Positions 3,513-64,000 of a stretch of DNA of 64,000 nucleotides are shown in pieces; within the stretch, counting starts at the first letter, position 1, and each line of letters begins with the position of its first letter. Made by a program: the position numbers and the translations under genes. The stretch is taken from NCBI GenBank assembly GCA_021780815.1, contig JAJXYC010000001.1:1-64000 (forward strand). The letters are read 5' to 3'. The DNA comes from Bacteroidota bacterium (GTDB taxonomy: Bacteria > Bacteroidota > Ignavibacteria > Kapaibacteriales > UBA2268). The notes under the pieces are model-generated. The model saw only the letters and a list, made by a program, of their open reading frames with translations. It was not told the origin of the DNA and did no database searches.

Positions 3513-3839
3513 ATGCTCCAAGTTTCAAATATTGATGAATTAAACGAAGTTATTTCAAGTAATCCAATTGTTCTTTTGTATTTTTCAACGCAAAAGTGCA
3601 ATGTATGTAAAACATTGAAGCCCAAAGTACAATCAATGCTTGCTAATTATCCTAATGCAGCTTCGCGTTATATTGACTTAGAAAAATTTACCGAAGTATC
3701 AGGAAAATATACTGTATTTTCTATTCCCACAATTATCGTTTTAATTGATGGGAAAGAATATATTCGGGAAAGTCGACATTTTAGTTTGTTTGAATTAGAG
3801 CAAAAAATTCAAAGATACTATGTTATGTTATATTCTTAA
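3513..3839 (+). CDS. thioredoxin-like protein
   Basis: A 108-residue single-domain thioredoxin fold. The redox motif is CNVC (residues about 29-32) in place of the canonical CGPC, after the strand IVLLYFSTQ. The cis-proline segment SIPTIIVLIDGKE is present about 40 residues later. There is no signal peptide, so it is likely cytoplasmic. The unusual CxxC makes this a thioredoxin-family protein of uncertain substrate rather than the main thioredoxin. It lies between gatA (15 bp upstream) and rluB (about 30 bp downstream). Confidence 0.8.
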   Translation: MLQVSNIDELNEVISSNPIVLLYFSTQKCNVCKTLKPKVQSMLANYPNAASRYIDLEKFTEVSGKYTVFSIPTIIVLIDGKEYIRESRHFSLFELEQKIQRYYVMLYS

Positions 3840-25248: not shown

Positions 25249-25278
25249 TTTATAATCTTATCCAAATTAAATATAAAA

Positions 25279-26064: not shown

Positions 26065-26083
26065 TTTCTTTATATTTTCCCAT

Positions 26084-27334: not shown

Positions 27335-27474
27335 ATACTTCCTTTTTCTGTAAAAGAATAAATAACAAAATTAACTAATTTTTTTGTAATTCAATAAATC
27401 CTTTGATAATGAATGATTTAATATTTTAACAATTTAAATTATTTTTATAATTAACTTAATCTTTGTAAAATATT

Positions 27475-27506
27475 TTTGTTTTATTTATGTGATTGTATTA
27501 ATTTTG
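27475..27506 (+). promoter_or_regulatory. Bacteroidota-type promoter of the TonB receptor
   Basis: TTTG at 27475-27478 and TAATTTTG at 27499-27506 are 20 bases apart, matching the TTTG-N19/20-TAnnTTTG pattern of Bacteroidota sigma-A promoters. Transcription would start near 27513, about 26 bases before the GTT ATATG start region with its GGGG ribosome binding site. Confidence 0.55.
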
Positions 27507-27538
27507 TTGTGATATTATTTAAAATTATTTGGGGTTAT

Positions 27539-30238
27539 ATGTTCAAAAGACTACTTACTTTATTTATTTTAACTTTTTTCATAACTGGGGCATTGTTTGC
27601 AGAAAGTATAATTAAAGGTACTGTTAAATCTGACGAGAACAATGAAACTTTACCTGGTGCAAGTGTTGCTCTCATCGGGACAAAACAAGGGGCAAAGACA
27701 AATGCCGAAGGCAAATATGAAATTAAGATTTCAAATGTAGGCAGATATACGTTACGAGTAACGTATATTGGTTACACTCCTATGGAAAAGACAATATCTG
27801 TAAAAGCAGATGAAACTATTACGGTGAATTTTTTATTAGGTGCTGCCCCGATTCAAAGCGAGGCGATTTCGGTTGTTGCAAGTCGTGCTCAAACAAGAGA
27901 AACACCTGTTGCATTTTCTAATATTAGTAAGATGGAAATTGAAGACCAATTAGGTTCACGAGATATTCCTATGATTTTAAATACAACACCTGGTGTTTAT
28001 GCTACTGATTTAGGAGGTGGATATGGTGATAGTCGTATTAATATACGTGGATTTGACCAGAGGAATATTTCTGTGATGATTAATGGTGTCCCTGTAAATG
28101 ATATGGAAAATGGTTGGGTTTACTGGTCAAATTGGGATGGACTTGGCGATGTAACTTCGTCAATTCAAGTACAGCGTGGATTAGGGGCGAGTAGAATTGT
28201 CAATCCCTCTGTTGGTGGAACAATGAATATTATTACCGATGCTGCATATTTAAGACCTGGTATTAAATTAAAACAAGAAGTTGCATCGGGCGATTTCCTT
28301 AAAACCACTTTAATTGGCAACACGGGTAAAATTGGAAATTTTGCGGCAACAATTGCGGCTGTCAGAAAAACTGCTGATGGTGTTATTGAAAAAGCTTGGG
28401 ATGATGCTTGGGCTTATTACCTGGGGTTAAGTTATGATATTAATCAGAATCATAAATTAGACTTTTTCCTTATTGGGGCACCACAAATGCACGGTCAAAG
28501 ATATTATCAACCAGGTATTGCTACTTTTGATAAGCAATTAGCAAAAGATTACGGTGTGAGACAAGGATTAATAGATTCTACAATTGAATTAGGATATACT
28601 GCTAATAAAGATTGGGGTGCCATCAAAATTGACCAAGCACATCCTGTAAAAGAATATTATTACGGAAGCGAACACGACCTTTATAGCAATTCATTCATTA
28701 ATACACGAGAAAATTATTTCCATAAACCTCAAATGAATTTAAATTGGTTCTGGAAAATGTCTGATATTACGAGTTTAACAAGTGTATTTTATTATTCAAT
28801 TGGTAGAGGTGGTGGTTCTACTCCAAGTGGTATTGCTTGGGATTCTTTGGGACGTAGTGATATTCAAGGAGCATACAATTTTAATATAGACCCGATATCT
28901 ATAGATCCGAGAAATAGTACAACTTTGCATAAAGCCAAAGGATATCTATTAAATTCAATTAACCAACATAATTGGTATGGTTATTTAGGAACATTGGATA
29001 TTAAATCATCTAAAGAATTGACAATACAAACAGGGATAGACCTACGTTCTTATACTGGTGAGCATTGGCAAGAAGTACGCAACTTACTCGGTGCAGATTA
29101 TGTTTATAATGTTGCTGATAAAACAGTTGATTATACTGCTAATCCTTCACTTGCGTTAAAAAAATTAGGCGATATAGTCAATTATCATTATGATGCTGAT
29201 GTAAATTGGGTAGGTGGTTTCTTTCAAGCGGAATATAAAAAAGATAACTTTACAACTTATTTAAATACATCTTTGTCTAATACTGGTTATAAAAGATTAG
29301 ATTACTTTAGAACAGATACTATGCCTAACGGGCGAGAAACTCCTTGGCAGAATTTTTTAGGTTATACTATAAAACTTGGTTCTAATTACAATATCAATCA
29401 AGCAATGAACGTTTTTGCTAATATTGGTTATTACAATCGGGCGCCACTTTATAGAAACGTTTTTAATGATAATAACTCTCTGTATAATAATATAAATAAC
29501 GAAAAAGTTACTTCTATGGAACTAGGCTACAGCTATTTCCATAGGAAATTTAGAGTAAATGTAAATCTTTATTGGACAATCTGGCAAAACCGTTCTTGGT
29601 ATACAAGTACTAATTACACTGACCCTGTTACTAATGTTGTTACTACATATTACTATAATTTACCCGGATTAGGTGCAAACCATAAAGGCGTAGAAGCCGA
29701 TTTCAGCTATCGTTTAATTAAGCAAGTCAAAATAAACGGTATGTTGTCAGTTGGTGATTGGCGATGGACTAATGATGTTACGGCAACATTTGCTCCTGAA
29801 AATTTAACTGATGCACAAGGTAATCCTGTTATTTTTACAACAAAAGTTTACGCAAAGGATTTAAAAGTAGGAGATGCCGCTCAAACAACTGGCTCAATTT
29901 CTGTTAATTATTACCCTATGAGTAGAACAACATTAACTTTATCTTACACGTATTTTGCTGATTATTATGCGAATTTTAGCCCTGAAAACAGGACTAATTC
30001 TACTGACCGCTCCCAACCTTGGAAATTACCTGCTTATGGTTTGTTAGATGCTCATTTTAATATGACACTGCCATTTGATTTGCCGTTTGATTTAGTATTA
30101 TCTGCACATGCTTATAATTTGTTGAATACTAAATACATATCAGATGCTTATGACCCACCAACGCATGATGCTAATGCTACAAGAGTTTGGGTTGGACTTC
30201 CATTCCGTTGGAATATCGGTTTGCAAATTGTATATTAG
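27539..30238 (+). CDS. TonB-dependent outer-membrane receptor with carboxypeptidase-regulatory domain
   Basis: The frame is open from 27476, but the ATG at 27539 has a GGGG ribosome binding site and starts a proper signal peptide (MFKRLLTLFILTFFITGALF), giving 899 residues. Domains in order are a CarboxypepD_reg-like sandwich (about 22-110; GTVKSDENNETLPGASV), a plug (about 120-250; LNTTPGVYATDLGGGYG, RINIRGFDQRNISVMING) and a 22-strand barrel to the C-terminus (LPFRWNIGLQIVY). The N-terminal domain is that of SusC-like receptors, but no SusD partner is adjacent. The ligand is unknown. Confidence 0.9.
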   Translation: MFKRLLTLFILTFFITGALFAESIIKGTVKSDENNETLPGASVALIGTKQGAKTNAEGKYEIKISNVGRYTLRVTYIGYTPMEKTISVKADETITVNFLLGAAPIQSEAISVVASRAQTRETPVAFSNISKMEIEDQLGSRDIPMILNTTPGVYATDLGGGYGDSRINIRGFDQRNISVMINGVPVNDMENGWVYWSNWDGLGDVTSSIQVQRGLGASRIVNPSVGGTMNIITDAAYLRPGIKLKQEVASGDFLKTTLIGNTGKIGNFAATIAAVRKTADGVIEKAWDDAWAYYLGLSYDINQNHKLDFFLIGAPQMHGQRYYQPGIATFDKQLAKDYGVRQGLIDSTIELGYTANKDWGAIKIDQAHPVKEYYYGSEHDLYSNSFINTRENYFHKPQMNLNWFWKMSDITSLTSVFYYSIGRGGGSTPSGIAWDSLGRSDIQGAYNFNIDPISIDPRNSTTLHKAKGYLLNSINQHNWYGYLGTLDIKSSKELTIQTGIDLRSYTGEHWQEVRNLLGADYVYNVADKTVDYTANPSLALKKLGDIVNYHYDADVNWVGGFFQAEYKKDNFTTYLNTSLSNTGYKRLDYFRTDTMPNGRETPWQNFLGYTIKLGSNYNINQAMNVFANIGYYNRAPLYRNVFNDNNSLYNNINNEKVTSMELGYSYFHRKFRVNVNLYWTIWQNRSWYTSTNYTDPVTNVVTTYYYNLPGLGANHKGVEADFSYRLIKQVKINGMLSVGDWRWTNDVTATFAPENLTDAQGNPVIFTTKVYAKDLKVGDAAQTTGSISVNYYPMSRTTLTLSYTYFADYYANFSPENRTNSTDRSQPWKLPAYGLLDAHFNMTLPFDLPFDLVLSAHAYNLLNTKYISDAYDPPTHDANATRVWVGLPFRWNIGLQIVY

Positions 30239-30260
30239 ATACAAAATAAAAATTTAGTGC

Positions 30261-30285
30261 GAGGCTGTCTTTTTGGGATAGCCTC
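30261..30285 (+). terminator. terminator of the TonB receptor gene
   Basis: Arms 30261-30269 and 30277-30285 (GAGGCTGTC / GATAGCCTC) pair with one G-T pair around a TTTTTGG loop, 22 bp after the stop codon. The same stem and loop recur at 30590-30614. Confidence 0.75.
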
Positions 30286-30583
30286 AATATAGAAAAAATA
30301 TATTAAAATAAGAAATCTACTCCGCTATTAGAATTGATAGTTAGTGTGAAGAGTGGTTTGTTAATGTTTGAAATTTCGTCTCTTGGTCAAAGGTTGCAAC
30401 CTTTTTAATAGTATCGTTCATTTATCTCATCTCACTTTGCATTTCCGCTCTTTTACTTTGAATTCTTTCCCCAAAAACATATTGTTATGTATTCAAAATA
30501 TTTGTTTAATTGTTTTGTTTAATTCAAAATATTTTTAAGAAATCTTCCCTCCTGACAAATATTTATTTTGTGAAAATTGGGAA

Positions 30584-30614
30584 TAAAAAAAGGCTGTCTT
30601 TTTGGGACAGCCTT
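30584..30614 (-). terminator. rho-independent terminator of the large T9SS gene
   Basis: Arms 30590-30598 and 30606-30614 (AAGGCTGTC / GACAGCCTT) are perfect. Read on the minus strand the stem is followed by a run of seven T (30584-30590), a classic terminator 33 bp beyond the stop of the 1888-residue gene. Confidence 0.85.
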
Positions 30615-30647
30615 GATTCCTCATTGCAAATGGAGAGGAGATTTGTG

Positions 30648-33600
30648 TTATTTAACAATATTCACTTTTTTAGTGAAAGTTTGATTACCGATATTAATAA
30701 TTAAATTATAAGCACCAGAATTGAAGTCAGCAGCATTAATAGTTATTTGATTATCACCACTACTCATTTGACCAGTTGCAAATACTTTAACTAATGAGCC
30801 TGCCATATCATATAAAGCAATATTAACATCATTTGCATTTGAAAGATAAATATCAACAACAGAAGATGAATTAACTGGGTTAGGTTGAACTTCGCTAACC
30901 GAAATTACACCATCGTTTCCAAGTAATGTAACAGTTTTTTCATCGCTATATTTAAATTCGCCGTTTTTATCAATCATTTTTAAACGATAAGAATAAGTAT
31001 TGCCATATTGAACTTGATTATCAACAAAAGGACCGTAATGAGTTATAGAAGAAGCATTTCCACGAGATTGTTCTTCACCAATTTTAACAAATCCTTGTTC
31101 TAATCCATTGATAACCAAGGAGCGTTCAATATCAAAGCGAGTAGAATTAATTTCACTTGCAGTAGTCCAATTTAAATCAACACGGTTATTAGATGGAACA
31201 GCTTCGAATGAAAGTAAATCTATAGGAACGACATTACCGTCATTAGCATTAGCATAATCAACAATTGAGCGTAAAGTTTTTTCAATATCACCCCAATGTC
31301 TCCAATCAACACCTAGGATGCAAACATTGTAAGGAACAGCATTTGTAGTAATAGCAGCAATTTTCAAACTATCAGGAACTTTGCTGAAGCTACCCCAAAC
31401 ACGTGTGTTAAAGCTAACAGTATCATATAACATACCAACACGTGGAACACCCATACCTTCTGCTTGCATAGTGAAAAGTCCCGGAATTGGATAATTATTT
31501 GGATATAATTCGCTATTAGTATTTTCCAAATAAGTTTCTTGAACAGGGAATATTTGTAAACGTCCAATATAGATACCATTCAAAGTACGACCTGCAAAAT
31601 TATTATTAGGAACATCTAATGGTGAAACAGGAGATGCCGTACCAGCGTGGAAGTATGAATCAAATGTTGGGAATAAGGATTCATTATTTCTTACAAAATC
31701 TTGGGAACTAATAAATAAATTCTTCTTTTCTACATTTGGAATACCTGAATTCATAAATTTAACTAATTGGTTGTATTCATAAATTGACAAGGTATTTGTT
31801 GTAGGAACACCTGCATTTAAATACGTGTCGTGTCCATCAACCCAGAACATAGTTTTGTATAAATTATAATCTATTGAACGTCTTTCCCATGCTTTTCTAT
31901 CAAATACATCATAATCAATTCTTGGGTCTTCTAAGTCAAGATTACGATACCAACCTAATCTAAATAAACCGGCAGTAAGCGAATCTAAATTCAAATTAGC
32001 CGCAATAATATTTGGGTCAGAAGGTAAGTTCGCAGTATCAAGAGTTTGCCAATGTTCAGTTGATAGAAGCATCTGCAATTTTGAACGTTGCAAGAAGTAA
32101 CGAGTTGTTTCTGAAATTGAATTATTTGAGTTATTTTCATCGTAATTAATGCTAACAACAAATTTATAGCGTGGAGTAACATTTCCATTCATATTAACAA
32201 ATTGAGTTGGAATGTTAGTATAAGCATCAGCAGTTCCATTAAAGCTTGCATAAGCCTGTGGAATAAAATCAGGGCTAACGCCGTCAGCAGTATTAAAGCT
32301 AACTTCACGGATTTCGCCAGGATTCAAATTATTAACAGTAATACTTGTTGTCATTACTAATTTACCATCTTCAAATCTATTATTATTAGATTCACGATAA
32401 ATATTTAATGTAGCAGTAATTCCAGATTGCATTTGTGTTCCATTATTACGAATTTGAGTTTTAACATCAACAGGAGCTTTTGTCATAATATATTGAGCAT
32501 CATCAAATGGGAAACCAGTTGTTGCTTGATAAACAAGAGGTTGAGAGAAATTCAACATTTCAACATCAACCATATAAGGTTTACCAGTAAATTGTTCAGC
32601 ACCAATATTATAACGATGTCCGGCATATCCACGAATACTACCGTCAATATCAATTGTATTGTAATCCAAAGTTAATCCACGACCTTCAAGGACAGAACCA
32701 ACTGGAACAGGATTTGTTCTTGCTCTTAATTTGCTTGGAGAAGTTGCCGAAATTGTTAAATCATTTAAGAAATTATATATTGAAACTGATTTCATATCTT
32801 CGCCTGTCCAAGCTTGCCATTGGTCTAACCTACTAAATTCACGAGGAGCACCCCATTCGTAAACATTCATATCCATTGTTGTTTCAATAAATCTTGCAAA
32901 GTCTGCTGTTGATTGATTAATCCAGTAAACATTATTATTGAAAGTAACATTGGCTTCTTTTGGCATTGGGTTATAATAAAACAATGCAGCTGCTAAATAA
33001 TTATTGCTTTGAATTAAAGCATCTTTAATTGCAACAGCATTGTTTACTACATCTGTATTAAGAACTTGTGCTAATCCAATACCAGCGATTTCACCGCTAT
33101 TTTGGATAAATTCTTCGTTTTGGTCATCTAAAATAATTGTATTGTTAGCTATTTTGTTACCTTTTACATAATAGAAATCTAATTTTGGACGATATGATAA
33201 ATGGTCATCGCCTAAAGTATAATCACGAGAAGGCATCAAAATAATCCCATATTGATTTGTTGTAGTATTAACAACATTGATATCTCTAATAATATTATTT
33301 AATATTGAAATATTGTCATCTGTTGCGGGGAAGAATTGGGTGTTTTGTCCAGAACCAAAATTAAAGCCATATTGATTAACTAAAATTCCGCATGTATTTA
33401 TAGGTGCTTTAATATTACTAATTTCATTACCATCAATTTTAATATCAACATTATGATAACCTAAATTAGTCTTATTTGCTTTTCCACCGAGATAAATACC
33501 AGCGGCAGTTCTTAAAGAATTTTGAATATTGTCGATTCTGTTGTTTGCAATAGTCGTATTGGATTCAAATCCCATATAAACACCAGCAAATCCAATATTA

Positions 33601-53093: not shown

Positions 53094-54302
53094 TTAATTT
53101 TTAAAAGGACTTGAAATATATTTTTTTGCAATAGTATGGGAATCGTTCCATTCGGGAAGAGACAGAACTTTATTATAATATGATTTTGCTTGATTACGAT
53201 TAGATTTTAAATCATAAATATTGCCAATTTTTAAAAGAGTAAAGACATAAAATCCAGAAGGCTTTTTATCAATAGCAAGTGAACCTTCTAAACTTTTTTG
53301 AAAATATTTAAGGGCATCATCTAAATCATTGCGATTCATTAAAGCAACACCGATATAATACGTAGCTTCCCGAGCGGTAATACTGTTGTAACCTGTCTTT
53401 TTCTCAATTGCACGATTGAAAACTTCTCGCCATTCTTTTTCATATTCTGTTGACATACCCATTCTTACTAAACAGCGTCCCAAATAACGATGAAAATAAG
53501 CATTTTGTGGGTATTTATTATGAAGTTCTTGTGCTAATTGTAAGGCTTCGTAATTATTATTTTCAAAAGAATAATATATTTGTAAAAGCACCACTTTCGC
53601 TTCTACCGATGCATAACGAGCATATTTTGATGCTGCTCGTAACTGAAATAATCCTAATCTTTTATCTCCATTAGGGAGAAATATCATTAATGGCTTTAAT
53701 AATGGATATTCTTCTGGAAATTTTTGAGAAAAATAATTGTAAATACCTGTACCAAGCATAATATCGTGGTTAAATGGAGCAACTTCCTGACATTTCTGTA
53801 ATATGTCCAAAGCTTCTTTTGCATCGTGTATAGCAGAGATCCAGTCATCTCGCATTGTTCTTAATCTGGCACGATAACCAATTGCTCCGCCTTTAAAGAA
53901 TAATGCGTTTATATCGTATGAATTTGTATCAAGAGTTCTGTCGCATACATCTATTACTTTATTAATTTTATTTAAGAATAGTTCGTCGTTTGAAGTATTA
54001 TCGTTATCCAGAACAATTTTCCACCATTCAATCATTGCATCTAAAAAATAGCCTGCTGGGTGATTAGGATATTTCTCTTCAACTTGCTTGAAACAATCGC
54101 TGGCTTTGTCAAATTCTGAGTTATATATATAGTTTGCTCCTGTTAAAATTAAACTATCCGCATCTCTGTATAAAATTGCCCATTGCGAATTAGCTTTTAA
54201 AAAAGGAACCATAAAAAGCAATACTACAAAAAATATTCGGAATATTGTTTTATTAAAACTATGTGGAGATTTATTTTTTATTATTTGATTTTGCGTTTCC
54301 AT
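53094..54302 (-). CDS. secreted tetratricopeptide-repeat protein
   Basis: A 402-residue protein with an uncleaved or late signal segment (about 20-38; FRIFFVVLLFMVPF) followed by TPR-like helix pairs: NYIYNSEFDKASDCFKQVE with YPNHPAGYFLDA, AYFHRYLGRCLVRMG, YYIGVALMNRNDLDDALKYF and LKIGNIYDLKSNRNQAKSYY. It probably acts as a periplasmic or lipid-attached scaffold. The start is 1 bp from the end of the CPBP gene, so both form a minus-strand operon. Confidence 0.82.
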   Translation of the reverse strand: METQNQIIKNKSPHSFNKTIFRIFFVVLLFMVPFLKANSQWAILYRDADSLILTGANYIYNSEFDKASDCFKQVEEKYPNHPAGYFLDAMIEWWKIVLDNDNTSNDELFLNKINKVIDVCDRTLDTNSYDINALFFKGGAIGYRARLRTMRDDWISAIHDAKEALDILQKCQEVAPFNHDIMLGTGIYNYFSQKFPEEYPLLKPLMIFLPNGDKRLGLFQLRAASKYARYASVEAKVVLLQIYYSFENNNYEALQLAQELHNKYPQNAYFHRYLGRCLVRMGMSTEYEKEWREVFNRAIEKKTGYNSITAREATYYIGVALMNRNDLDDALKYFQKSLEGSLAIDKKPSGFYVFTLLKIGNIYDLKSNRNQAKSYYNKVLSLPEWNDSHTIAKKYISSPFKN

Positions 54303-55603: not shown

Positions 55604-56341
55604 ATGAATGACAAAATTGAAATATTTACCGATGGCGCTTGTCTGGGTAACCCAGGGGCAGGTGGCTTTGCTTGGATTCTTTTATTTGATAATAAAAGGG
55701 TAGAACATTCTGAATCCGAGCCTAAAACAACTAATAATAGGATGGAATTGTCCGCTGTTGTTAGTGTGTTATCTTATTTTGATGAAAATAAAAAAAGCGA
55801 CAAAAAATACAAATTAGTAATTAATACTGATTCAAATTTAATTGTACAAGCCGTTACTGCCGGCTGGTTGCAATTTTGGGCTAGAAATAATTGGATAAAA
55901 CAAGACAAAAAACCTGTTAAAAATCAAGATTTATGGGAAAAAGTTTATTTCTTGCTCAATAAATACGATGTTGATTTTGTTTGGATAAAAGGGCATTCGG
56001 GAATAGAAATGAATGAGATATGCGATAAATTAGCTCGGCAAGCGGCAACTTCGCAAACTTCTATTTATCATCAAGTTATTAATTTGAAGAAAAAATCAGA
56101 GCAAGAAAGTAGCAAAATTAATACAAAATCAGACAAAACAAATGATGCCTTTAAGTTCCATCTTATTGATAAAGAGCAATTATTAATTGAGCAAATAATC
56201 CAAAAAGGTTTTATTAAAAATCCTAACTCAATCGTCTTAAATAATTCAAATATTAGTGAATTTCAAAATAAACTAAATCAATTTATCAACAAATATTTTA
56301 AAAATGATAATGGTGAAAATGAAAAATTACAATCGAAATAA
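55604..56341 (+). CDS. rnhA: ribonuclease HI with C-terminal extension
   Basis: The frame opens at a TTG at 55559, but the ATG at 55604 matches the family start (MNDKIEIFTDGACLGNPG), giving 245 residues. Catalytic acidic residues are visible: Asp in FTDGAC, Glu in NRMELSAV, Asp in INTDSN and the late Asp in EICDKLARQAA. It removes RNA from RNA-DNA hybrids. About 95 residues beyond the usual 150 (from TSIYHQVI on) are charged and helical and have no recognised domain. The next gene starts inside the 3' end. Confidence 0.93.
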   Translation: MNDKIEIFTDGACLGNPGAGGFAWILLFDNKRVEHSESEPKTTNNRMELSAVVSVLSYFDENKKSDKKYKLVINTDSNLIVQAVTAGWLQFWARNNWIKQDKKPVKNQDLWEKVYFLLNKYDVDFVWIKGHSGIEMNEICDKLARQAATSQTSIYHQVINLKKKSEQESSKINTKSDKTNDAFKFHLIDKEQLLIEQIIQKGFIKNPNSIVLNNSNISEFQNKLNQFINKYFKNDNGENEKLQSK

Positions 56342-57077
56342 CATCTTCTTTGCAGTATTTTTTTCCCTTCTTTTTTCACAAATAACTTTGTTTTCACAAC
56401 CTAAAGATGTGGTTCTGTACACAGGAACAGTAAAAAATGATTTAGGTGAAGCTGTGGGGACTGAAATGAGATTTTTAACAGAAGGGCAGTCTCCTACTAT
56501 TGTGCGTTCAAATAGCGATGGTTCTTATCAATTAGTTCTCAAGCAAGGTAAAATATATATACCTGTATTTAGAGGTTATATAGAAATCGGGGGAATTGTG
56601 CCTTTGAACGTTGAAAAATACGATGGTTATCAAGAATTAAGCAAAAATTATGTTGTTCGTCAATTGAAAGAAAATTTGGAAATTGCAAATATTAATCTTT
56701 TTGCAGATGAAGATTCTACTTTGAGCGATGATGGGAAATTCTTTCTCAAAACCTTTAAAGAATTTTACTCTCTCAACAAGAACACACAATTTGATATACA
56801 TTTGTCTGCTGTTGGAATAAAATTTAAGCCTAAAATAGTTACACAAAAAATTCAAGTAAAAGGAAGAACAAGAACTAAGAAAGTAAAAATTCCTGCTGCC
56901 GATTTAGCGAAAGCATTTTTACAAAGCAGATCTGATAGTATTCAATTATATCTCAAAAGTTTAGGCTTACCCTTAAAACTTTTTAATTACGTAATGGATA
57001 CAAATATTTCAAATAAAACTCCAACACCAGCAACAGATACAAAAATAATTTTAATAAAATTATTAAAATTTAATTAA
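56319..57077 (+). CDS. secreted protein with carboxypeptidase-regulatory and OmpA-like parts
   Basis: The first ATG is at 56304. The Met at 56319 begins a clean signal peptide (NNIFFAVFFSLLFSQITLFSQ), giving about 252 residues. The N-terminal domain (about 30-110; YTGTVKNDLGEAVGTEMRF) is a CarboxypepD_reg or Cna-B-like sandwich. The C-terminal part has an OmpA-like arrangement (DLAKAFLQSRSDSIQLYLKSLG) without all usual peptidoglycan-binding residues. It may link the outer membrane and the wall. It overlaps the end of rnhA by 23 bp. Confidence 0.65.
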   Translation: MKNYNRNNIFFAVFFSLLFSQITLFSQPKDVVLYTGTVKNDLGEAVGTEMRFLTEGQSPTIVRSNSDGSYQLVLKQGKIYIPVFRGYIEIGGIVPLNVEKYDGYQELSKNYVVRQLKENLEIANINLFADEDSTLSDDGKFFLKTFKEFYSLNKNTQFDIHLSAVGIKFKPKIVTQKIQVKGRTRTKKVKIPAADLAKAFLQSRSDSIQLYLKSLGLPLKLFNYVMDTNISNKTPTPATDTKIILIKLLKFN

Positions 57078-57085
57078 AATAATGA

Positions 57086-57114
57086 TTGTCTTTCGTTGAT
57101 TTTTAGTAATTTTG
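57086..57114 (+). promoter_or_regulatory. promoter of the tRNA-Gln gene
   Basis: TTG at 57086-57088 and TAATTTTG at 57107-57114 are 18 bases apart. The tRNA 5' end is 40 bases downstream, a sensible leader for a tRNA precursor. Confidence 0.5.
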
Positions 57115-57153
57115 AATTATTAAAATTTTGTTATTTGAAAAAGTTCAAAAAAG

Positions 57154-57226
57154 TGCCTCGTAGTGTAATTGGCAACACGTCTGACTCTGGATCAGAAGAG
57201 TTTAGGTTCGAGCCCTAACGAGGCAG
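57154..57226 (+). tRNA. tRNA-Gln (anticodon CUG)
   Basis: A 73-base tRNA with a 7-bp acceptor stem (57154-57160 TGCCTCG with 57219-57225 CGAGGCA), a discriminator G at 57226, and an anticodon stem TCTGA/TCAGA enclosing the loop CTCTGGA, whose anticodon is CTG. The T arm carries GGTTCGAGCCC-type bases, and CCA is not encoded. U1-A72 is typical of tRNA-Gln. The tyrosine recombinase that follows probably uses its 3' end as an attachment site. Confidence 0.95.
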
Positions 57227-57239
57227 CTTGTAATAAAAT

Positions 57240-57271
57240 ATGGCGGTTACTGAGATTTCAATAACCGCCAT
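57240..57271. terminator. hairpin between tRNA and integrase
   Basis: Perfect 10-bp arms ATGGCGGTTA (57240-57249) and TAACCGCCAT (57262-57271) lie between the tRNA and the convergent integrase. Both flanks are T- or A-rich, so it may stop transcription in both directions. Confidence 0.65.
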
Positions 57272-57279
57272 TCATTTTC

Positions 57280-57301
57280 TGGCTACGATTTGGCTACGAT
57301 T
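57280..57301. repeat. tandem 11-bp direct repeat near the attachment site
   Basis: TGGCTACGATT occurs twice without a gap (57280-57290 and 57291-57301), between the tRNA and the integrase stop. Short direct repeats here are typical of arm-type binding sites for integrase or excisionase, but this is inference from position. Confidence 0.5.
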
Positions 57302-57382
57302 TTATATGATTTTTCTTATCATTCATTTTGAATAATTTTCTTATAACTCTAATAATTGCACTGTTTTTTTTGTTATTTTTTA

Positions 57383-58324
57383 CTAATCTGCTAATAGTTG
57401 CAAGTAATTTTGTGTTGTAGATAAATTAGAATGACCCAACAAATTCATAATTTCAAAAATTGGAACACCATTCTTGCTTAATTCACTAGCATATTTGTGC
57501 CTGAGATTATGCCAAGTCCAAACTTTTACTCTCATCTTTTTAAGTTTTTCATCTAAAAAATCTGGAGTGCTTTTCCATCGACCAAATACTTCCAAGGGAT
57601 ATTCTTTACCATACATAAAATCTGGTTTTGGGACTTTTCTCGGTGTTAAATTAGAATTATAACTTTTTCTTGTATATAATACAATTTTATCCTCGAAAAT
57701 ATCTTCCGTGCTTAATTTCAAAGCTTCACCAATTCGAGCTCCTGTATGTCTGACAAAAAGCACTAATTCTTTTTGACCTTCATCGCATTTTGCTAGTAAA
57801 TTATCAATTTCTTCATCTGTTGGTATATACTTGAAATGTATATCAATTGGGAAATTTTTAATTTTTGCGGCTGGATTTTCAATTTTAATTTCTAATTCAT
57901 TGATTGCAAAATTAAATAATGCTTTTATCGCTCTTAACATAGCATTAACCGCATAATTATCATGTCCCCTTGATTTTAATGTTTGTTGATAAATTGTTAA
58001 TGTATCTTGAACATCTTTTTTCTTTATATGGTTGATTGCAATATCTCCAATATGTTCAAAAAATATTGTTAAATATCTATTTGATTCACTAACATATTTT
58101 TTAGATTTGCGAACTCCCAGAAAATTAATTCTTTCTTGTATGATTTCTGATAAATTAACTGTTTCAACCTGCTTCATTCTTAAATTATATCTCTCTTCAT
58201 TTTCTGCTCTTTTTGCCTCGCCCTTTGTCTTATAAATACATCCTGAAAAATATGTAATTCCTGAATAATCAAATTTATAATACCAACGTATTCCATCTTT
58301 TACTTTTCTTGAATATACTGCCAT
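57383..58324 (-). CDS. tyrosine site-specific recombinase (integrase)
   Basis: A 313-residue phage-type integrase. An N-terminal Arm-like region (YYKFDYSGITYFSGCIYKTKGEAKRAE) precedes a SAM-like core-binding domain (about 55-150) and the catalytic domain. Catalytic residues are visible: Arg197 in TGARIGEAL, His272 and Arg275 in HNLRH, His298 in LLGHSN and Tyr307 in TTQNYLQL. It should catalyse insertion at the adjacent tRNA-Gln. Its ribosome binding site is AAAGGT, 6 bases before the ATG, within an ACAAAAGGT leader shared with two nearby genes. Confidence 0.95.
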   Translation of the reverse strand: MAVYSRKVKDGIRWYYKFDYSGITYFSGCIYKTKGEAKRAENEERYNLRMKQVETVNLSEIIQERINFLGVRKSKKYVSESNRYLTIFFEHIGDIAINHIKKKDVQDTLTIYQQTLKSRGHDNYAVNAMLRAIKALFNFAINELEIKIENPAAKIKNFPIDIHFKYIPTDEEIDNLLAKCDEGQKELVLFVRHTGARIGEALKLSTEDIFEDKIVLYTRKSYNSNLTPRKVPKPDFMYGKEYPLEVFGRWKSTPDFLDEKLKKMRVKVWTWHNLRHKYASELSKNGVPIFEIMNLLGHSNLSTTQNYLQLLAD

Positions 58325-58362
58325 TTTATCACCTTTTGTTTTTTAAATGAACTATAACTTAA

Positions 58363-58566
58363 TTATATCACTTCTGCATCTCTAAGAATATCAGTCTTAC
58401 CCGTAGAATAAATAATTGCTTTTTCAAATTGTTTTGCAATTATTCTTGACATACTTTCTGATAGGAAAATATGTTCAGTCCTGTAAACTTTCCTTTTGAT
58501 CCTAATTTCTATTCTAAACAGATTGGTTTCTGGATTTTCTACTATTCTTATGTTTTCCATTGTCAT
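58363..58566 (-). CDS. small element-encoded protein, unknown
   Basis: A 67-residue protein with a strand-rich first half (NIRIVENPETNLFRIEIRIKR) and a helical second half (SMSRIIAKQFEKAIIY). No family recognised. It is preceded by AAAGGT in an AACAAAAGGT leader identical to that of the integrase, and lies 38 bp upstream of it on the same strand. Confidence 0.6.
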   Translation of the reverse strand: MTMENIRIVENPETNLFRIEIRIKRKVYRTEHIFLSESMSRIIAKQFEKAIIYSTGKTDILRDAEVI

Positions 58567-58603
58567 TTTGATACCTTTTGTTAATTTTGTTTTTAAGAAA
58601 GAT

Positions 58604-58623
58604 TAACGAGATTAGGCTCGTTA
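58604..58623. promoter_or_regulatory. inverted repeat in the xis/integrase divergent region
   Basis: TAACGAG (58604-58610) and CTCGTTA (58617-58623) are perfect inverted arms around ATTAGG. A second short dyad ATTGT-CA-ACAAT lies at 58658-58669. Both are between divergently read genes and could be operators or excisionase sites. Confidence 0.4.
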
Positions 58624-58703
58624 GTTGGGTTAATAAGTGGAGGCGGTTTATTTGTCTATTGTCAACAATTCGGGATAGTGAGGAGTGAGTAGTTGAGGTT
58701 CTT

Positions 58704-58892
58704 ATGAAAGACCAAATCTTCTACACTCCTAAAGATGTGGCTTCTATCTTACTCTGTTCTGTTAAAACTGTTTATAGTTTAGGTCAGAGTAAAAAGATAC
58801 CTGGTTATATTAAGTTTAAATCAGGTATGGTTCGCATCAATAAGGAGACTTTTGACAAGTGGATAAACCATTTATCCTCTAACAAATCTTAA
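58704..58892 (+). CDS. excisionase-like helix-turn-helix protein
   Basis: A 62-residue MerR/Xis-type protein: FYTPKDVASILLCSVKTVYSL is the winged-helix DNA-binding motif and VRINKETFDKWINHL is the C-terminal helix, as in helix-turn-helix family 17 excisionases. It would bind attachment-site arms and direct excision or regulate the integrase. It starts at an ATG behind TGAGG, is divergent from the integrase block and is closed by a terminator. Confidence 0.85.
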   Translation: MKDQIFYTPKDVASILLCSVKTVYSLGQSKKIPGYIKFKSGMVRINKETFDKWINHLSSNKS

Positions 58893-58906
58893 TCGATGGT
58901 TAAGTG

Positions 58907-58934
58907 CCCCCAAGTTTTTATATTTGGGGGTTTT
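58907..58934 (+). terminator. terminator of the excisionase-like gene
   Basis: CCCCCAA (58907-58913) and TTGGGGG (58924-58930) form a perfect stem followed by TTTT, 15 bp after the stop codon. Confidence 0.88.
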
Positions 58935-58936
58935 AC

Positions 58937-59137
58937 TTACTTCTTATGTTTTAAATTCAATTCAATAAGTATGTCTTTTACTAAGCGGTTTGTTTCTTTA
59001 TTCAATTTATCACATTTGTTGTGCTGAGAATTAAAATAGTCTTCTACTATTTTACTGCTGTCTTTTTTCTCATCTTTTCCAAAGAGTAATTTTACTAAAC
59101 TACCACAGTCTTCTAAAAAGCCTTCTATTAAATCCAT
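58937..59137 (-). CDS. small element-encoded protein, unknown
   Basis: A 66-residue charged, mostly helical protein (IEGFLEDCGSLVKLLFG, then DKLNKETNRLVKDILIE). No family recognised. AAAGGT within an ACAAAAGGT leader lies 7 bases ahead of the ATG, the same leader as in the integrase and the 67-residue gene. That supports it as a real gene of the same element. Confidence 0.55.
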   Translation of the reverse strand: MDLIEGFLEDCGSLVKLLFGKDEKKDSSKIVEDYFNSQHNKCDKLNKETNRLVKDILIELNLKHKK

Positions 59138-59277
59138 ATTTTTTACCTTTTGTTTAAATTGAAAATAATTTCATTTGCAATTTATAAGATGGATCAAAAT
59201 GAAGTGCTATTCTATTTTTCCAGATAGTTCATAAATTTCTATTCTGTCTATTCAGTGGAAGATTTTCTAAATATTTA

Positions 59278-59670
59278 TCAATACCAATTTAAGAGATTAC
59301 TCCATTTACTTAACTCTTTGTATTGTTTACTGTCTATTAGAATAAGTTTTTCATTAGGATAATACTTGCTAAATCTTTTTAATTTTACTTTGCTTTTTTC
59401 ATCCATATATCCCTTTACTTCGTGCCATTCTATCGTTCCGTCATTATTATAAACTTTAAAATCTGGTCTATAACTTCTTGTTCCTAACTTTATCGCTTCA
59501 AAGATAAATACTTGTGCTTCGTATTCCCATGATTTTATTTGTTTATTTTTAATTAAGAAATCAAGGTATAAAGCGTAGTTTGCCTCCCATTTACTCCTGA
59601 AAAATATCTCTTTTCCATTGATATTATAAACTCCTCGTTTTACATTGCCATATTTTTTTTCATTAGGCAT
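59278..59670 (-). CDS. DUF1064-type PD-(D/E)XK endonuclease, copy A
   Basis: A 130-residue protein of the phage DUF1064/TnsA-like fold. The putative active site is Glu29 in SKWEANYALYLD, Asp70 in YRPDFKVY and the Glu84-x-Lys86 pair in WHEVKG. The strand-turn NNDGTIEWHEVKG is shared with copy B. These are predicted small nucleases of phages and mobile elements, perhaps Holliday-junction or packaging related. It overlaps copy B by 8 bp and is translated after it. Confidence 0.82.
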   Translation of the reverse strand: MPNEKKYGNVKRGVYNINGKEIFFRSKWEANYALYLDFLIKNKQIKSWEYEAQVFIFEAIKLGTRSYRPDFKVYNNDGTIEWHEVKGYMDEKSKVKLKRFSKYYPNEKLILIDSKQYKELSKWSNLLNWY

Positions 59671-60046
59671 ACTTTTGTTTTTTAGACTTCGGTCTGTTAA
59701 ATTTTCCTTGCTCGATTATTGTAATCTTTACATCTGGTTTATCCGAGTATAGTGCCTCAAATAATTTAAATTTGAATATGAACATTTGCGAATACAGTCC
59801 TTTTAATTCGACATATTCAACAGTTCCGTCATTATGATAAACAATAAAGTCAATTCTATACTGGCAAACAAGATATCCGTTAACTATTAGATCAAGATTC
59901 ACTTGTCTGTCATATCCTTTAATATCCTTGGCTTTTAATCTTAAGTCAAGTTCTTGGGCGTATGACGCTTCAAATTTTGAGTCGTAGAGATAACCATTGT
60001 ATTCTTGTTTTTTTGCGTTTGTCCACTTCTTTTGAATGTAATACAT
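59663..60046 (-). CDS. DUF1064-type PD-(D/E)XK endonuclease, copy B
   Basis: A 127-residue paralogue of the next gene with the same order of motifs: Glu26 in SKFEASYAQELD, Asp66 in YRIDFIVY, and Glu80-x-Lys82 in YVELKG after HNDGTVEY. Full-length similarity to copy A is modest but the motif spacing is nearly the same. The first of two overlapping genes, it could form a heterodimer with copy A (inference). Confidence 0.82.
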   Translation of the reverse strand: MYYIQKKWTNAKKQEYNGYLYDSKFEASYAQELDLRLKAKDIKGYDRQVNLDLIVNGYLVCQYRIDFIVYHNDGTVEYVELKGLYSQMFIFKFKLFEALYSDKPDVKITIIEQGKFNRPKSKKQKYA

Positions 60047-60480
60047 AAGTTTGAGGTAATTTATATTACCATTATAGCAAATAAATGAAAGTGAACAACC
60101 TGTGGATAAGTCTGATAATTCTAGTAATTACAATATGAAAATATCAATTATTTCAGCCTTTACATTGGGTTTGCCAATTTGCTATAATAACTTTGTTAGT
60201 ATAATCGTGCCCATAGAGCGGTGAGCGATTTAAAACAATTAGACCGCAACAGCAACTCATCTCAACACCTATCGCAGGTTTTCTGCACTTTTAAAACCAT
60301 TGTTAGACAATTTTAATAAGCAAGTTTTGTTAAATTATCATTTTGGACAAGTGTATCTTTCTGGCTCGTTTACCCATTAAGAATACTATCTAGATCTATA
60401 TGATGTTTAAACTAATCTGCGAAAGGCTGTGAGTTTAGATTGTCTGGTGGGGAGGGCGTGTAATACTATAATATGGTAGT
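60047..60480. other. 434-bp ORF-free region with a strong promoter
   Basis: Between divergent genes there is no ORF. A good promoter lies at 60159-60195, and the roughly 280 bases after it (60201-60480) are less AT-biased than the flanks. They contain short inverted segments such as GCGGT/ACCGC and TAAACT/AGTTTA. They could be a long leader or a small RNA gene. Confidence 0.55.
60159..60195 (+). promoter_or_regulatory. promoter matching two consensus types
   Basis: TTTACA (60159-60164), an 18-base spacer and TATAAT (60183-60188) form a near-consensus sigma-70 promoter. The same stretch reads TTG (60165-60167), 20 bases and TAACTTTG (60188-60195) as a Bacteroidota promoter. Transcription would start near 60201. 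Confidence 0.6.
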
Positions 60481-60482
60481 AT
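60463..60482 (+). promoter_or_regulatory. palindrome over the start codon of the RHH-like gene
   Basis: ATACTA (60463-60468) and TAGTAT (60477-60482) are inverted arms whose second half includes the first bases of the ATG at 60481. A TATAAT lies between them (60467-60472). It looks like an operator, possibly for the encoded ribbon-helix-helix-like protein. Confidence 0.4.
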
Positions 60483-60810
60483 GTTAAAAATACATTACAA
60501 ACCAAAAAGTTTTAGGCTCAATAAAACTACAATTCATCAATTAGATAAAATAAAAATTGATGGAAATTTTGCAAGTTATAACAAATTATTCTTGCATTTA
60601 ATTCAACTACATTATCAATTTATGGATAATCATTTAACAAAAGAAGAAAAAGAATTGTTAAGACAATTAACTAATGTTAAGGAGGGTGATATTTGTCCTC
60701 ACTGTAAAATCGGCACAATAGTCTTGAAAAGGAGTAAATATGGGAAATTCCTTGCTTGTAATGAATTCCCAAGATGTGCTTTTACTCAAAAATATGAAGA
60801 AAGCAGATAA
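60481..60810 (+). CDS. ribbon-helix-helix-like protein with topoisomerase-type zinc ribbon
   Basis: A 109-residue protein. The N-terminus KSFRLNKTTIHQLDKI followed by SYNKLFLHLIQLHY resembles a CopG-type ribbon-helix-helix. Residues 72-99 form a C4 zinc ribbon (Cys72, Cys75, Cys93, Cys99) with GTIVLKRSKYGKFLACNEFPRC, close to the C-terminal zinc domains of topoisomerase I. No topoisomerase is attached. A DNA-binding regulator fits best. There is no ribosome binding site at normal distance, and a TATAAT lies just ahead of the ATG, so translation may be leaderless. Confidence 0.75.
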   Translation: MLKIHYKPKSFRLNKTTIHQLDKIKIDGNFASYNKLFLHLIQLHYQFMDNHLTKEEKELLRQLTNVKEGDICPHCKIGTIVLKRSKYGKFLACNEFPRCAFTQKYEESR

Positions 60811-60958
60811 TGAAAAAGAAAAACAATGTATTATTTGCGGAAAAATTGCTAAAAGATTGCTTTATTCTCAATTAAGTGGTATATTTTCTCCGTATTGTCT
60901 TGAACATTATGATGAAGCTGTAAAGAATTATCGCATTGAACGCTATTTTGCTAAATAA
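60794..60958 (+). CDS. small treble-clef zinc-finger protein
   Basis: The frame opens earlier, but the Met at 60794 is the likeliest start, overlapping the previous gene by 17 bp, giving 54 residues. CIICGK near the start and YCLEHYDE further on make a C-x2-C ... C-x2-H zinc site. The rest is helical and basic. No function recognised. Overlap suggests coupling to the zinc-ribbon protein. Confidence 0.6.
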   Translation: MKKADNEKEKQCIICGKIAKRLLYSQLSGIFSPYCLEHYDEAVKNYRIERYFAK

Positions 60959-61071
60959 GGCTTTTAAATGGTCTGTAATGAACTGAAAACTAAAAGTTGA
61001 TAAATACTATTTCTTTTATCTTAATCGCTCGTATATGTCAATCTGGGGCTAAATATGAGCTATGAATCTAT

Positions 61072-61257
61072 ATGTCTTACAACACATTAGAGATTAACAA
61101 ACTTAAATCTAGGGCTAATGACCTTTTTATGAAAATTAAGTTTGGAAGTCGTCTTTATTATGATGCTCTCAAATTGTTCAATAACAAGTTAAATGCAAAA
61201 TCCGCTTCCGAACAAATCAGGATTCTTAAGCAAATTATTTATATCTTAGAAAAATAA
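61072..61257 (+). CDS. small helical protein, unknown
   Basis: A 61-residue, strongly helical, charged protein (LEINKLKSRANDLFMKI, SEQIRILKQIIYILEK). No motif recognised and no strong ribosome binding site. It is convergent with the T9SS gene, separated by a hairpin. It could be a chance frame, but codon use and its place among element genes argue mildly for reality. Confidence 0.45.
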   Translation: MSYNTLEINKLKSRANDLFMKIKFGSRLYYDALKLFNNKLNAKSASEQIRILKQIIYILEK

Positions 61258-61290
61258 AAAAATCCCCCTTTCAAATTGTTCTGAAAGGGG
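61258..61290 (-). terminator. terminator of the T9SS gene at the right edge
   Basis: CCCCTTTCA (61265-61273) and TGAAAGGGG (61282-61290) are perfect arms. On the minus strand the stem is followed by ATTTTTTTATTT. It lies 24 bp beyond the gene's stop and may also act weakly on the plus strand. Confidence 0.85.
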
Positions 61291-61314
61291 AAAATATAAG
61301 AGGAATTACCTTTG

Positions 61315-64000
61315 TTATTTCTGTATTATAATACTTTTTGTAGCAGTAGGTATTGTTGTATTATTGTTATTGAGTGTAGCTTTTACGAAATATGCTCCAT
61401 TTTCGAGATTTGATGTTTGTATTCTAACTAATTGACCTGCTGTTATTTCTTTGGTATATACTTCTTGACCCATTGAATTATAAAGTTTTATATTCATTTT
61501 CTCTGAATTGTTGCCTTGGATTACTTCGTTTTGTGGTAAGTATGCAACTACATATATTTCTTCCTTTGCTGGATTTGGATATGCCAATATTTGCAATTTG
61601 TTCTCGCTTGTTGCATAACTTTCTCCGTTTAAATCAACTATTTGCTCGTTGACATTGCCCGTCTTTTGCAACATTTCATCACCATCCATATTTAACAACA
61701 TTCGTTCAGGAAGATTTCCTATAAGCAACTGTTCAATCCGTTTTATGCCTACTTGTTTTACCCAAAGTATTCTATATTTTTCATTTTGACCATTTATGAA
61801 TACTTTTTGATGAAATTTATAGCTCTTGCTGTTAATTTTATTTTCTGTTATTTCCCATATCTTTCCATCTCGTTGTCTTTCTATTTCCATTGCATATCCA
61901 CTTATCATATTACCTTGTTCAAGATAGTTTAACCCTTTTATTTGTCCTATTGTGAACCATTCCGTAGATATTGTATCTTTTGGTATATATTGTCCCTTGT
62001 TTTGGTTATACATATTTATTTTAGGCGATTGTATCCCGTTTGTATCTAATAATGCTATCGGTGAAAACCACTTGCCTTCTCCCTCTTTATTACTAAATCC
62101 TATGAAATAGTTATACTTATCATTAAAGTTTATCCCTTTATAAAAATATTGGCTTGATTGCTTGCTCTCCGATGAATCTGATGTATAAAATATTCTCATA
62201 TATTGATACAAACTATCATCTTTAACACTCATTAATTCTGGCAATACTGGATCTTTACCTCTGCCACTTAATTCGTTAATGTTTGGTATGACATCAAGTG
62301 AAAATTCACCGCCCGTTGTTAATGTCCAGAAATTTTGTGGTATTTGATATATTAAACTATCATTTACTCCAAATGCCATTACCATTGCCGAATCGTTATA
62401 ATAGGTCTTTACTATTTCTGTGTCTAATCCATTTATTACCACTTGATCTTTCATTACTCCTTGGGCTAAACTTGGTGATTTTACATTCCCATTTATTGCT
62501 TTTATTACTGTTGGTATTTTTGCAGAATAACAATAAGGTTTCCATTCTATTCCGCTTTGTCCTATGCTTATTGTATCTCTGTAATCATAACCTGAATATT
62601 CTACAATGCTATTCCCTAATTCATCGGTTGCTTCCCATATTACTCTATCCATTTTTATGGCAAGACTGCCTGGCAATGAATCAATCAAATTCGGCATTTG
62701 ATATTTGGCTACATTCCTTATTATTCTTGCATTGCGATGTCTTGTGCCTGTTGTTCCATAACTTATCATTGAAACCCTACCTGTTATATCTTTTTGCATT
62801 AGATAAGCCATATCACAAGACATCACTGGTAAAAACGGCACTATATTACCTAGAGAATCTACTTTTATTCTTGTATAGAATAATTGATTTGTTGAATCAT
62901 CTAATGTCGCCGATTTTCTACCCTCAAAAACTAATGCACATTCGTCTTCCCCTAAATCTACTCTTGAATATCTGTTCATCTCTGGATTTACAAGTGTTGT
63001 AAATAATTCTCCTCCCGGCATTTGCACGTTTGGTATATATGTTGTGCCTCTAATTAACGAATCACCTGGATACATCCACCCAATACCAATGCCAAGTTCA
63101 GCATCGTCCCAAGATACATAATTCCTAAGTGCTGATGCATTGATTGTTGTAACGCCAATATAATTTGGGTCTCTTGTTGGAAAACCTAATGTTGAGTATG
63201 TTTTTACAATTCGATTTACACTATCCATTACTATTTCTGATGAACTTATACTATTGTGAATACTATCACAAGGAACATTTCTTACTAATGTTCCACTACC
63301 AATATATATACCACCAGAATTTGAATAATCACAATAACAAATGCCATTCCACACCATATAATAACGCATCGTTGATGTTCCATTTATGTTTTCCCATCTG
63401 GCAACGATTTTTGGTGGGTTACTTGTCATCATTGTGGCATCATCCGATGTGCAGGGAGGTAAAGAAATTCCACTTGCTTGCTGTGTGTTATCAGGAAGAT
63501 GAGTGTATTTCATATCAATAGGAACATCTAATGAAATTACGATACCTTTTGAAAGTAATGGTCGGGTATTTATTAATGAATCACAAATCGTTCCTTTATA
63601 TTGAACTGCCGGTTTAAGGTATTCAATTTGATTGCAATATGTTGGAAATAGTCCAATATCCCGTGATGGTGATGGAAATGCGTATTCATAATCCACCTTT
63701 AATATCTTACCTTGTCCTGGAAGCAACTTCATTACTAAATTAACTGTATCGGGGTTGAAATATAAAACTTTCATTTTGTCTGATTTTGAAGCATCCCATA
63801 TTTTGTCATTATACGGTCTCTGCATATACCATTCTGCCATATCATATCCAAGTTCTTTAACTTTTACGGCATAGTTCATCATAAAACCACATACCCTTCT
63901 TCCATAATATGGATCGATGTAATATACTACTTCTAACGGTTGTTTATTAAATGGTATCGTTATTTCCCTCGAACCTAATCGCTTCCACCATAACGTATTG
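61315..64000 (-). CDS. large T9SS-sorted protein, start outside the window
   Basis: The frame has Met codons at 63882 and 63879 but stays open to the window edge (NTLWWKRLGSREITI and YYIDPYYGRRVCGF precede those Met). The true start is therefore off the right side, and at least 894 residues are present. The body is beta-rich with many Gly/Asn turns and no enzyme motif that I recognise. The C-terminus is a type IX sorting domain (LAYPNPAKEEIYVVAYL, LYNSMGQEVYTKEI, LENGAYFVKATL). It is likely a surface or secreted protein exported by SprA. If it belongs to the tRNA-Gln element it is cargo. Confidence 0.8.
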   Translation of the reverse strand, partial: NTLWWKRLGSREITIPFNKQPLEVVYYIDPYYGRRVCGFMMNYAVKVKELGYDMAEWYMQRPYNDKIWDASKSDKMKVLYFNPDTVNLVMKLLPGQGKILKVDYEYAFPSPSRDIGLFPTYCNQIEYLKPAVQYKGTICDSLINTRPLLSKGIVISLDVPIDMKYTHLPDNTQQASGISLPPCTSDDATMMTSNPPKIVARWENINGTSTMRYYMVWNGICYCDYSNSGGIYIGSGTLVRNVPCDSIHNSISSSEIVMDSVNRIVKTYSTLGFPTRDPNYIGVTTINASALRNYVSWDDAELGIGIGWMYPGDSLIRGTTYIPNVQMPGGELFTTLVNPEMNRYSRVDLGEDECALVFEGRKSATLDDSTNQLFYTRIKVDSLGNIVPFLPVMSCDMAYLMQKDITGRVSMISYGTTGTRHRNARIIRNVAKYQMPNLIDSLPGSLAIKMDRVIWEATDELGNSIVEYSGYDYRDTISIGQSGIEWKPYCYSAKIPTVIKAINGNVKSPSLAQGVMKDQVVINGLDTEIVKTYYNDSAMVMAFGVNDSLIYQIPQNFWTLTTGGEFSLDVIPNINELSGRGKDPVLPELMSVKDDSLYQYMRIFYTSDSSESKQSSQYFYKGINFNDKYNYFIGFSNKEGEGKWFSPIALLDTNGIQSPKINMYNQNKGQYIPKDTISTEWFTIGQIKGLNYLEQGNMISGYAMEIERQRDGKIWEITENKINSKSYKFHQKVFINGQNEKYRILWVKQVGIKRIEQLLIGNLPERMLLNMDGDEMLQKTGNVNEQIVDLNGESYATSENKLQILAYPNPAKEEIYVVAYLPQNEVIQGNNSEKMNIKLYNSMGQEVYTKEITAGQLVRIQTSNLENGAYFVKATLNNNNTTIPTATKSIIIQK

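Follow-up and report, generated by a model that had tools for sequence, protein, structure and literature searches.

The DNA analysed here, hereafter the window, is a stretch of 64,000 nucleotides (G000:C14:1-64000) from a Kapabacteria metagenome-assembled genome (MAG) with an assembly of 2.63 Mb in 20 contigs. Near its right end a tRNA-Gln(CTG) gene (57154..57227, plus strand; ARAGORN, with an Rfam tRNA match at 57154-57226) is followed by a terminator-like stem-loop (57240..57271, plus strand), a tandem repeat GGCTACGATTTGGCTACGA with an 11-bp period (57281..57299, plus strand) and a gene for a tyrosine integrase of 313 amino acids (aa), which is convergent with the tRNA gene (57383..58324, minus strand; PF00589, E 3e-17; phrog_1 match). 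Beyond several small genes lies the 3' part of a gene for a giant protein secreted by the type IX secretion system, T9SS (61315..64000, minus strand). As the contig extends to 67,065, 9.8 kb of the candidate element, and not 6.8 kb, can be read. It seems that mobile DNA was inserted here next to the glutamine tRNA gene of an uncultured Kapabacteria genome. With a probability of roughly 0.77, the 9.8 kb form the left part of an integrative element residing in the 3' half of tRNA-Gln(CTG), with the giant T9SS protein as its main cargo. This reading is based on the gene set, the recurring layout of tRNA, hairpin, tandem repeat and integrase, the absence from one congener that has the same tRNA neighbourhood, and a complete related element with a homologue of the T9SS gene inside. 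The relatives compared are mostly Kapabacteria and Ignavibacteria MAGs; G003 (GWF2_33_9) belongs to the same genus, and G075 is RIFOXYC2_FULL_35_21.

The integrase has R197, K220, H272, R275, H298 and Y307, which we take to be the catalytic residues expected of a tyrosine recombinase, and all are retained in the six aligned sequences (the window protein and five relatives). In all ten examined members of the subfamily, tandem repeats separate the integrase gene from a preceding 3' end or 3' half of a tRNA gene. The targets are tRNA-Gln, Thr, Lys and Arg in the family; in three further families of that class they are tRNA-Met, Asp and Gln. Ends without an integrase add tRNA-Asn. At E 1e-30 the subfamily was found in 5 of 395 genomes of the phylum (G075, which was probably not drawn, is not among these), and within our searches a small number of Kapabacteria have it, as do three genomes from other families in the class. 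No close homologue was observed in the four congeners searched (best E 4.3e-10).

The RNA fold of the 53-nt gap between the tRNA gene and the repeats has an energy of -17.5 kcal/mol. A stem-loop of -11.9 kcal/mol or lower occurs in this gap at 12 of 13 examined sites, which were picked by hand with a motif list composed to fit them; G151 has no hairpin behind the tRNA. The spacing between tRNA and repeats is 50-55 bp at ten sites of the family, and 33, 63 and 74 bp in three other families. A hairpin behind a tRNA gene is not special by itself, as 3 of the 11 control tRNAs are followed by a hairpin of -13 kcal/mol or less. In G010, nearly identical hairpins follow the Asn, Gln and Arg tRNAs, which suggests that the hairpin belongs to the moving element and not to the tRNA.

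The tandem repeats are probable arm-type binding sites of the integrase. The repeat pattern was found at 12 sites in 6 of the 54 family genomes, and the reversed-pattern control gave 0. Seven sites follow a complete tRNA 3' end at a distance of 52-54 bp, and two follow what by eye is a tRNA 3' half; the other three are a right end in G076, followed by a tRNA-Arg 3' half, an extra copy within the G075 element, and an unassigned site in G028. In its own genome the exact motif occurs only in the window, and a copy with one mismatch is present on contig G000:C9. The 82 bp starting within the window repeat recur there behind a tRNA-Asn gene with 95% identity, and no close integrase homologue was found next to that end. 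By its sequence, this is a second, damaged element end, namely a left end, in the same genome. The order on G000:C9 (L005:9671-12218) is tRNA-Asn, hairpin, the repeat with one mismatch, and then an Rhs-type tail gene.

A complete element of 50.6 kb with the same type of integrase (48% identical to that of the window) was found on contig G075:C60. It is bounded by a 47-bp direct repeat of the 3' half of tRNA-Arg(TCG) (gene at 3568-3642; repeats at 3596-3642 and 54213-54259, 45/47 identical). The giant gene of G075 (24981-30158; with its WD40-like neighbour, 24981-31452) lies inside this element. Thus integrases of this type make tRNA 3' duplications, and the giant is cargo in at least G075. At the right end, an imperfect repeat pair stops 115 bp before the displaced tRNA half, the same distance as in G076, and a hairpin with a T run behind the displaced half (by eye) is probably the original tRNA terminator. 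By analogy with the 47 bp duplicated in G075, the 3' half of tRNA-Gln in the window was probably supplied by the element. The G075 element also carries a T9SS gene of 984 aa with a GH17 domain (L148:5931-8885; 37.5 bits at a cut-off of 28.2).

On contig G013:C54 the order is a giant gene in two open frames, a DUF1064-like gene, an integrase, repeats, and a tRNA-Lys 3' half. A right end with GGTGAC-type repeats abuts this tRNA-Lys half, so that the region looks like tandem islands. In G013:C115 (L044:5870-12000) an integrase is located behind a tRNA-Thr 3' half, beside a row of Rhs-type tails with differing C-termini. The right end next to it has GGGGAC repeats, not GGCTAC, so that different elements seem to differ in repeat type.

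An empty site was observed in one congener, G001, and this part of the reading is limited to that genome. G001 retains the RNase H gene (DNA match), a protein 40% identical to the product of 56304-57077, and tRNA-Gln; behind the latter it has other DNA, with no integrase up to the contig end 880 bp on. The homologue (54%) in our genome of the gene downstream in G001 is elsewhere, inside contig C16, and neither a tRNA gene nor any match to tRNA-Gln was found in the 6.5 kb around it. The original prediction, made from the letters of the window, had proposed an integrative element at tRNA-Gln and suggested comparing empty sites in close relatives and searching for a second copy of the tRNA 3' end. 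The first comparison agrees with the proposal, as the relatives do not share the whole stretch. The second search gave no further copy: a 31-bp query with up to three mismatches has one site only in the 2.63-Mb assembly, and neither blastn with 57100-58600 over the assembly nor the rest of the contig yielded a second tRNA-Gln 3' end.

The giant gene, whose start is at contig position 66930, is present in full on its contig, with an open frame of 1,871 codons; the N-terminus of its 1,871-aa product is hydrophobic (by eye). It has a type A sorting tail (Por_Secre_tail PF18962, E 7.7e-11, 41.3 bits at a cut-off of 27; TIGR04183, 29.9 at 23 bits). Beyond the tail, nothing above the cut-off was found in Pfam, NCBIfam, PHROGs or a profile search of the PDB. 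The last 120 bp of the contig, upstream of the giant start, resemble the tail of another T9SS gene (by eye).

A structure model of the giant core (predicted template modelling score, pTM, 0.69; mean predicted local distance difference test, pLDDT, 66) contains a beta-sandwich and a barrel resembling glycoside hydrolase (GH) family 42. The barrel aligns to GH42 with Z 12.2 (root-mean-square deviation, rmsd, 4.6; 350 residues aligned), the next row having Z 9.4. The best Foldseek match of the barrel model has E 0.0039, and no match has E below 0.001. The GH42 reading is based on the one row with Z 12.2 and on a putative motif resemblance (TGEExR...GAKG). The C-terminal model (mean pLDDT 56, pTM 0.49) contains a seven-bladed propeller at approximately residues 1100-1598, then sandwich domains; the propeller scores well above chance rows (Z 19.9, rmsd 3.5, 308 aligned), in a model of low confidence. 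For the N-terminal sandwich, insecticidal Cry domains (Z 8.9-9.4) rank before carbohydrate-binding modules (Z up to 8.7). Since sandwich folds are common, neither match was taken as an indication of function. The giant would thus be similar to GH42 and GH-A glycosidases and to PLL-type propeller lectins in its predicted barrel and seven-bladed propeller. However, its core has no sequence match to GH families. Judged by these folds of low to moderate confidence, it is about an even bet that the giant binds or cleaves glycans.

Homologues of the giant were found in 26 of the 54 family genomes searched (E 1e-8). Fourteen other giants align to that of the window at 23-30% identity. There are long forms of approximately 1,700-1,930 aa and short forms of approximately 1,290-1,515 aa, with the N-terminal 1,090 or so residues in common, and Pfam gave no relevant match on 21 core sequences. 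Three of the four congeners have no match at E 1e-8; the copy in G003 is 34% identical, has two stops in the match, and lies on a contig with tRNA-Arg and tRNA-Leu, not tRNA-Gln. Of the 16 loci where sequence before the giant is available, 14 have a gene there that matches the WD40-type T9SS gene of G013:C54; this count leaves out the G013:C54 reference and contigs cut at that point, and in G067 the match is via the tail alone. In G035 and G062, an unmatched open reading frame (ORF) of similar size is found at this position.

Integrases are over-represented near giants. Among the matches listed, 7 of the 48 giant places have PF00589 at no more than 5 kb, compared with 1.20 expected (P 2.6e-4); with the window giant excluded, the figures are 6 of 47 and 1.16 (P 0.0013). 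At 2 kb there are 3 such places versus 0.65 expected (P 0.029), and at 10 kb, 9 versus 2.12 (P 3.6e-4). For these counts, rows belonging to one gene were merged by hand, G060 and G061, which the integrase list did not cover, and the stub on G000:C18 were dropped, genome sizes were rounded, contig ends were not in the model, and the best 150 integrase rows were considered, weak ones being uncounted. An integrase-like ORF of 385 aa beside the giant of G066 (by eye) is outside the count. As most contigs are short, the number of giants residing on elements is uncertain.

Several loci contain incomplete or repeated giants. On contig G000:C18 (L082:9024-9337), tRNA-Arg(CCT) is followed by a 5' fragment of the giant gene of approximately 58 codons, whose DNA is 98% identical over 169 bp to that of the window giant. 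The window contig C14 and C18 both end just upstream of the giant start, and thus the region is probably repeated in the genome. Contigs G000:C14, G000:C18 and G021:C35 stop in or just before the giant 5' region. Five stubs with ORFs of 69-143 codons were noted: on G000:C18, G027:C86 (two), G021:C39 (at the contig start) and G020:C242. In G027:C86 (L101:2-10004), a WD40-like gene with a giant N-terminal stub occurs twice, followed by a WD40-like gene with a full giant. In the complete genome of G067 (Ch6; L084:1328-19101), the giant is located between two tRNA-Arg(CCT) copies, with another tyrosine recombinase beside one of them, and a direct duplication of 2,175 bp (99.4%), which starts at the tRNA-Arg(CCT) 3' end, lies on both sides of its segment. 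In G071:C74 (L090:11357-17010), the giant is directly followed by genes resembling a type I restriction-modification set (translations by eye).

The remaining genes of the module lie between the integrase and the giant. ORFs of 67 aa (58363..58566, minus strand) and 66 aa (58937..59137, minus strand) have no family above the cut-off and sub-threshold matches only, respectively. Between them, a helix-turn-helix (HTH) gene of 62 aa (58704..58892, plus strand; HTH_17, E 2.4e-10; TIGR01764, 27.9 bits at a cut-off of 28.8) encodes a probable excisionase, Xis; a homologue (42% over the first 48 aa) is found beside the integrase in G013:C37. A defence-island reading was considered and rejected, as the matches of the HTH gene to mad1 are weak only (E 0.0024; 29.5 of the 80 bits needed). 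Two DUF1064 nucleases follow, nuclease A of 130 aa (59278..59670, minus strand; E 1.6e-8; PD..EVK motif by eye) and nuclease B of 127 aa (59663..60046, minus strand; E 8.8e-13; ID..ELK motif by eye). They are 34% identical to each other, match phrog_190 'Holliday junction resolvase' (A, E 1.5e-20; B, E 3.5e-19), and probably are recombination or replication helpers. No long ORF and no Rfam match was found in the approximately 430 bp at 60047-60480. Then come a topoisomerase-type zinc-ribbon protein of 109 aa (60481..60810, plus strand; Zn_ribbon_Top1, PF01396, E 2e-13), an overlapping small cysteine-containing ORF of 72 aa with nothing above the cut-off (60740..60958, plus strand), and an ORF of 61 aa with no match (61072..61257, plus strand).

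Most of this content had been anticipated by the original prediction: a complete tRNA-Gln, on which ARAGORN and Rfam agree; a convergent recombinase with all catalytic residues; an excisionase-like gene; twin nucleases, both DUF1064; and perhaps a T9SS cargo protein, now seen as a gene running past the window. Of the zinc-ribbon proteins it named, the product of 60481-60810 is one, whereas that of 60740-60958 has sub-threshold matches only. It had also noted no phage structural, conjugation or replication genes. Indeed, among the ten proteins profile-scanned over the 9.8 kb, no conjugation or replication gene was recognised, and there is no capsid, portal or terminase match, the right part lying beyond the contig; however, nuclease A has one weak match to phrog_218 'head closure' (E 2.1e-7), far weaker than its resolvase match.

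Several observations weigh against an element with the giant as cargo. Neither the right end nor the displaced 3' half of the tRNA was found in this genome, where the contig breaks off at 67,065. The GC content of 0.295-0.320, compared with 0.310 upstream, is not foreign. At 41 of the 48 giant places there is no integrase within 5 kb among the matches listed, and thus many giants may be chromosomal, or the contigs are too short to tell. As regards the giant itself, confidence in its structure models is moderate or low (mean pLDDT 66 and 56), the barrel has a single row behind it, rows for GH27 and GH-A lying near Z 8, and neither Pfam on the 21 core sequences nor the PDB profile search links the core to glycosidases.

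One alternative is that the locus is a decayed, immobile island, in which the left end persists and the right end has been lost. The absence of a second tRNA 3' end would agree with this, as would the end on G000:C9 and three ends in G010, which keep the repeats and at which no close integrase homologue was found. However, the integrase has kept its catalytic residues, and the Xis-like gene, both DUF1064 genes and the giant with its 1,871 codons are all open, which makes decay unlikely. It is also rather improbable that the element consists of the integrase module alone, with the T9SS gene as a chromosomal neighbour or part of a second insertion. The unseen right end and the giants without a listed integrase point in that direction, and the 5' fragment behind tRNA-Arg(CCT) on C18 means that the gene may move by other means. 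On the other hand, the giant is inside the fully bounded G075 element, the same gene order is seen at the G013 tRNA-Lys half, three of four congeners have no giant match, and the G003 copy with its two stops is not on the tRNA-Gln contig. A prophage or phage satellite instead of a non-viral island is very improbable: the phrog_1 integrase, the phrog_190 matches of the DUF1064 genes and the weak head-closure match are set against the lack of capsid, terminase and portal matches in the ten proteins, the absence of integrase relatives from 2.9 million viral contigs in a scan sensitive to close relatives only, and the G075 element, where 0 of 10 scanned proteins (of some 35 ORFs) are phage structural and sub-threshold Replic_Relax (24.4 at 25.3 bits) and a HerA-like ATPase are found instead.

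For the integrative element with the giant as cargo, the following mechanism may be proposed. The integrase would recombine attP with attB within the 3' half of the tRNA gene, binding the tandem repeats as arm sites at both ends, and the HTH protein would direct or favour excision. Integration would replace the tRNA 3' half and the terminator with the element's own copies. The giant, as its sorting tail suggests, would be exported by the host T9SS and displayed on the surface or shed from it, where it may bind or cut glycans on surfaces, given its predicted sugar-binding, GH-like and beta-propeller parts.

The closest known systems are tRNA islands of the Islander class. In these, a tyrosine integrase gene adjoins a tRNA gene, the element restores the 3' half of the latter, and a displaced fragment marks the far end; their integrases switch tRNA targets, and tandem islands may occur at one tRNA (PMC4383910). 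The window element is similar in that its integrase is adjacent to the tRNA gene and faces its 3' end, but the displaced fragment is seen in relatives only, and the integrase subfamily is present in few of the genomes searched. The 10K genomic island of Riemerella anatipestifer, also a Bacteroidota host, has an integrase beside tRNA-Arg and, by our own reading of the printed sequence, a hairpin in its 53-bp att repeat (PMC6764341). Unlike the window element, it has an IntN1-like integrase and 12 ORFs, mostly hypothetical, and the accessible part of that paper mentions no giant T9SS cargo. A cryophage is reported to have variable genes with T9SS tails, glycoside hydrolases among them, which would rely on export by the host (PMC7468147). 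It is likewise mobile DNA with T9SS-tailed cargo. However, the cryophage is a phage with enzymes of known families, whereas the part of the window element seen has no recognised capsid genes and its giant no known domain. No description of elements of this sort or of the giant family was found in the literature searched, which is not proof of absence. From its sequence, the element may be considered a further version of the tRNA-targeted island, with a giant family that is apparently undescribed in the searched literature.

A doubtful scenario is a system of exchange for giant surface proteins, in which elements hopping between tRNA genes would import new WD40-plus-giant pairs, and recombination in the conserved 5' parts of resident and incoming copies would swap one giant for another and leave short N-terminal stubs behind. 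If this were true, the glycan specificity of a cell would be variable in a way comparable to the exchangeable tips of polymorphic toxins. More generally, the giants form a large family of secreted proteins whose core is not covered by the domain libraries used, and the element would provide a concrete route for secretion-dependent surface proteins between bacteria known mostly as metagenome assemblies. The bounded element of G075 and the recurring layout make both this route of mobility and the giant family testable.

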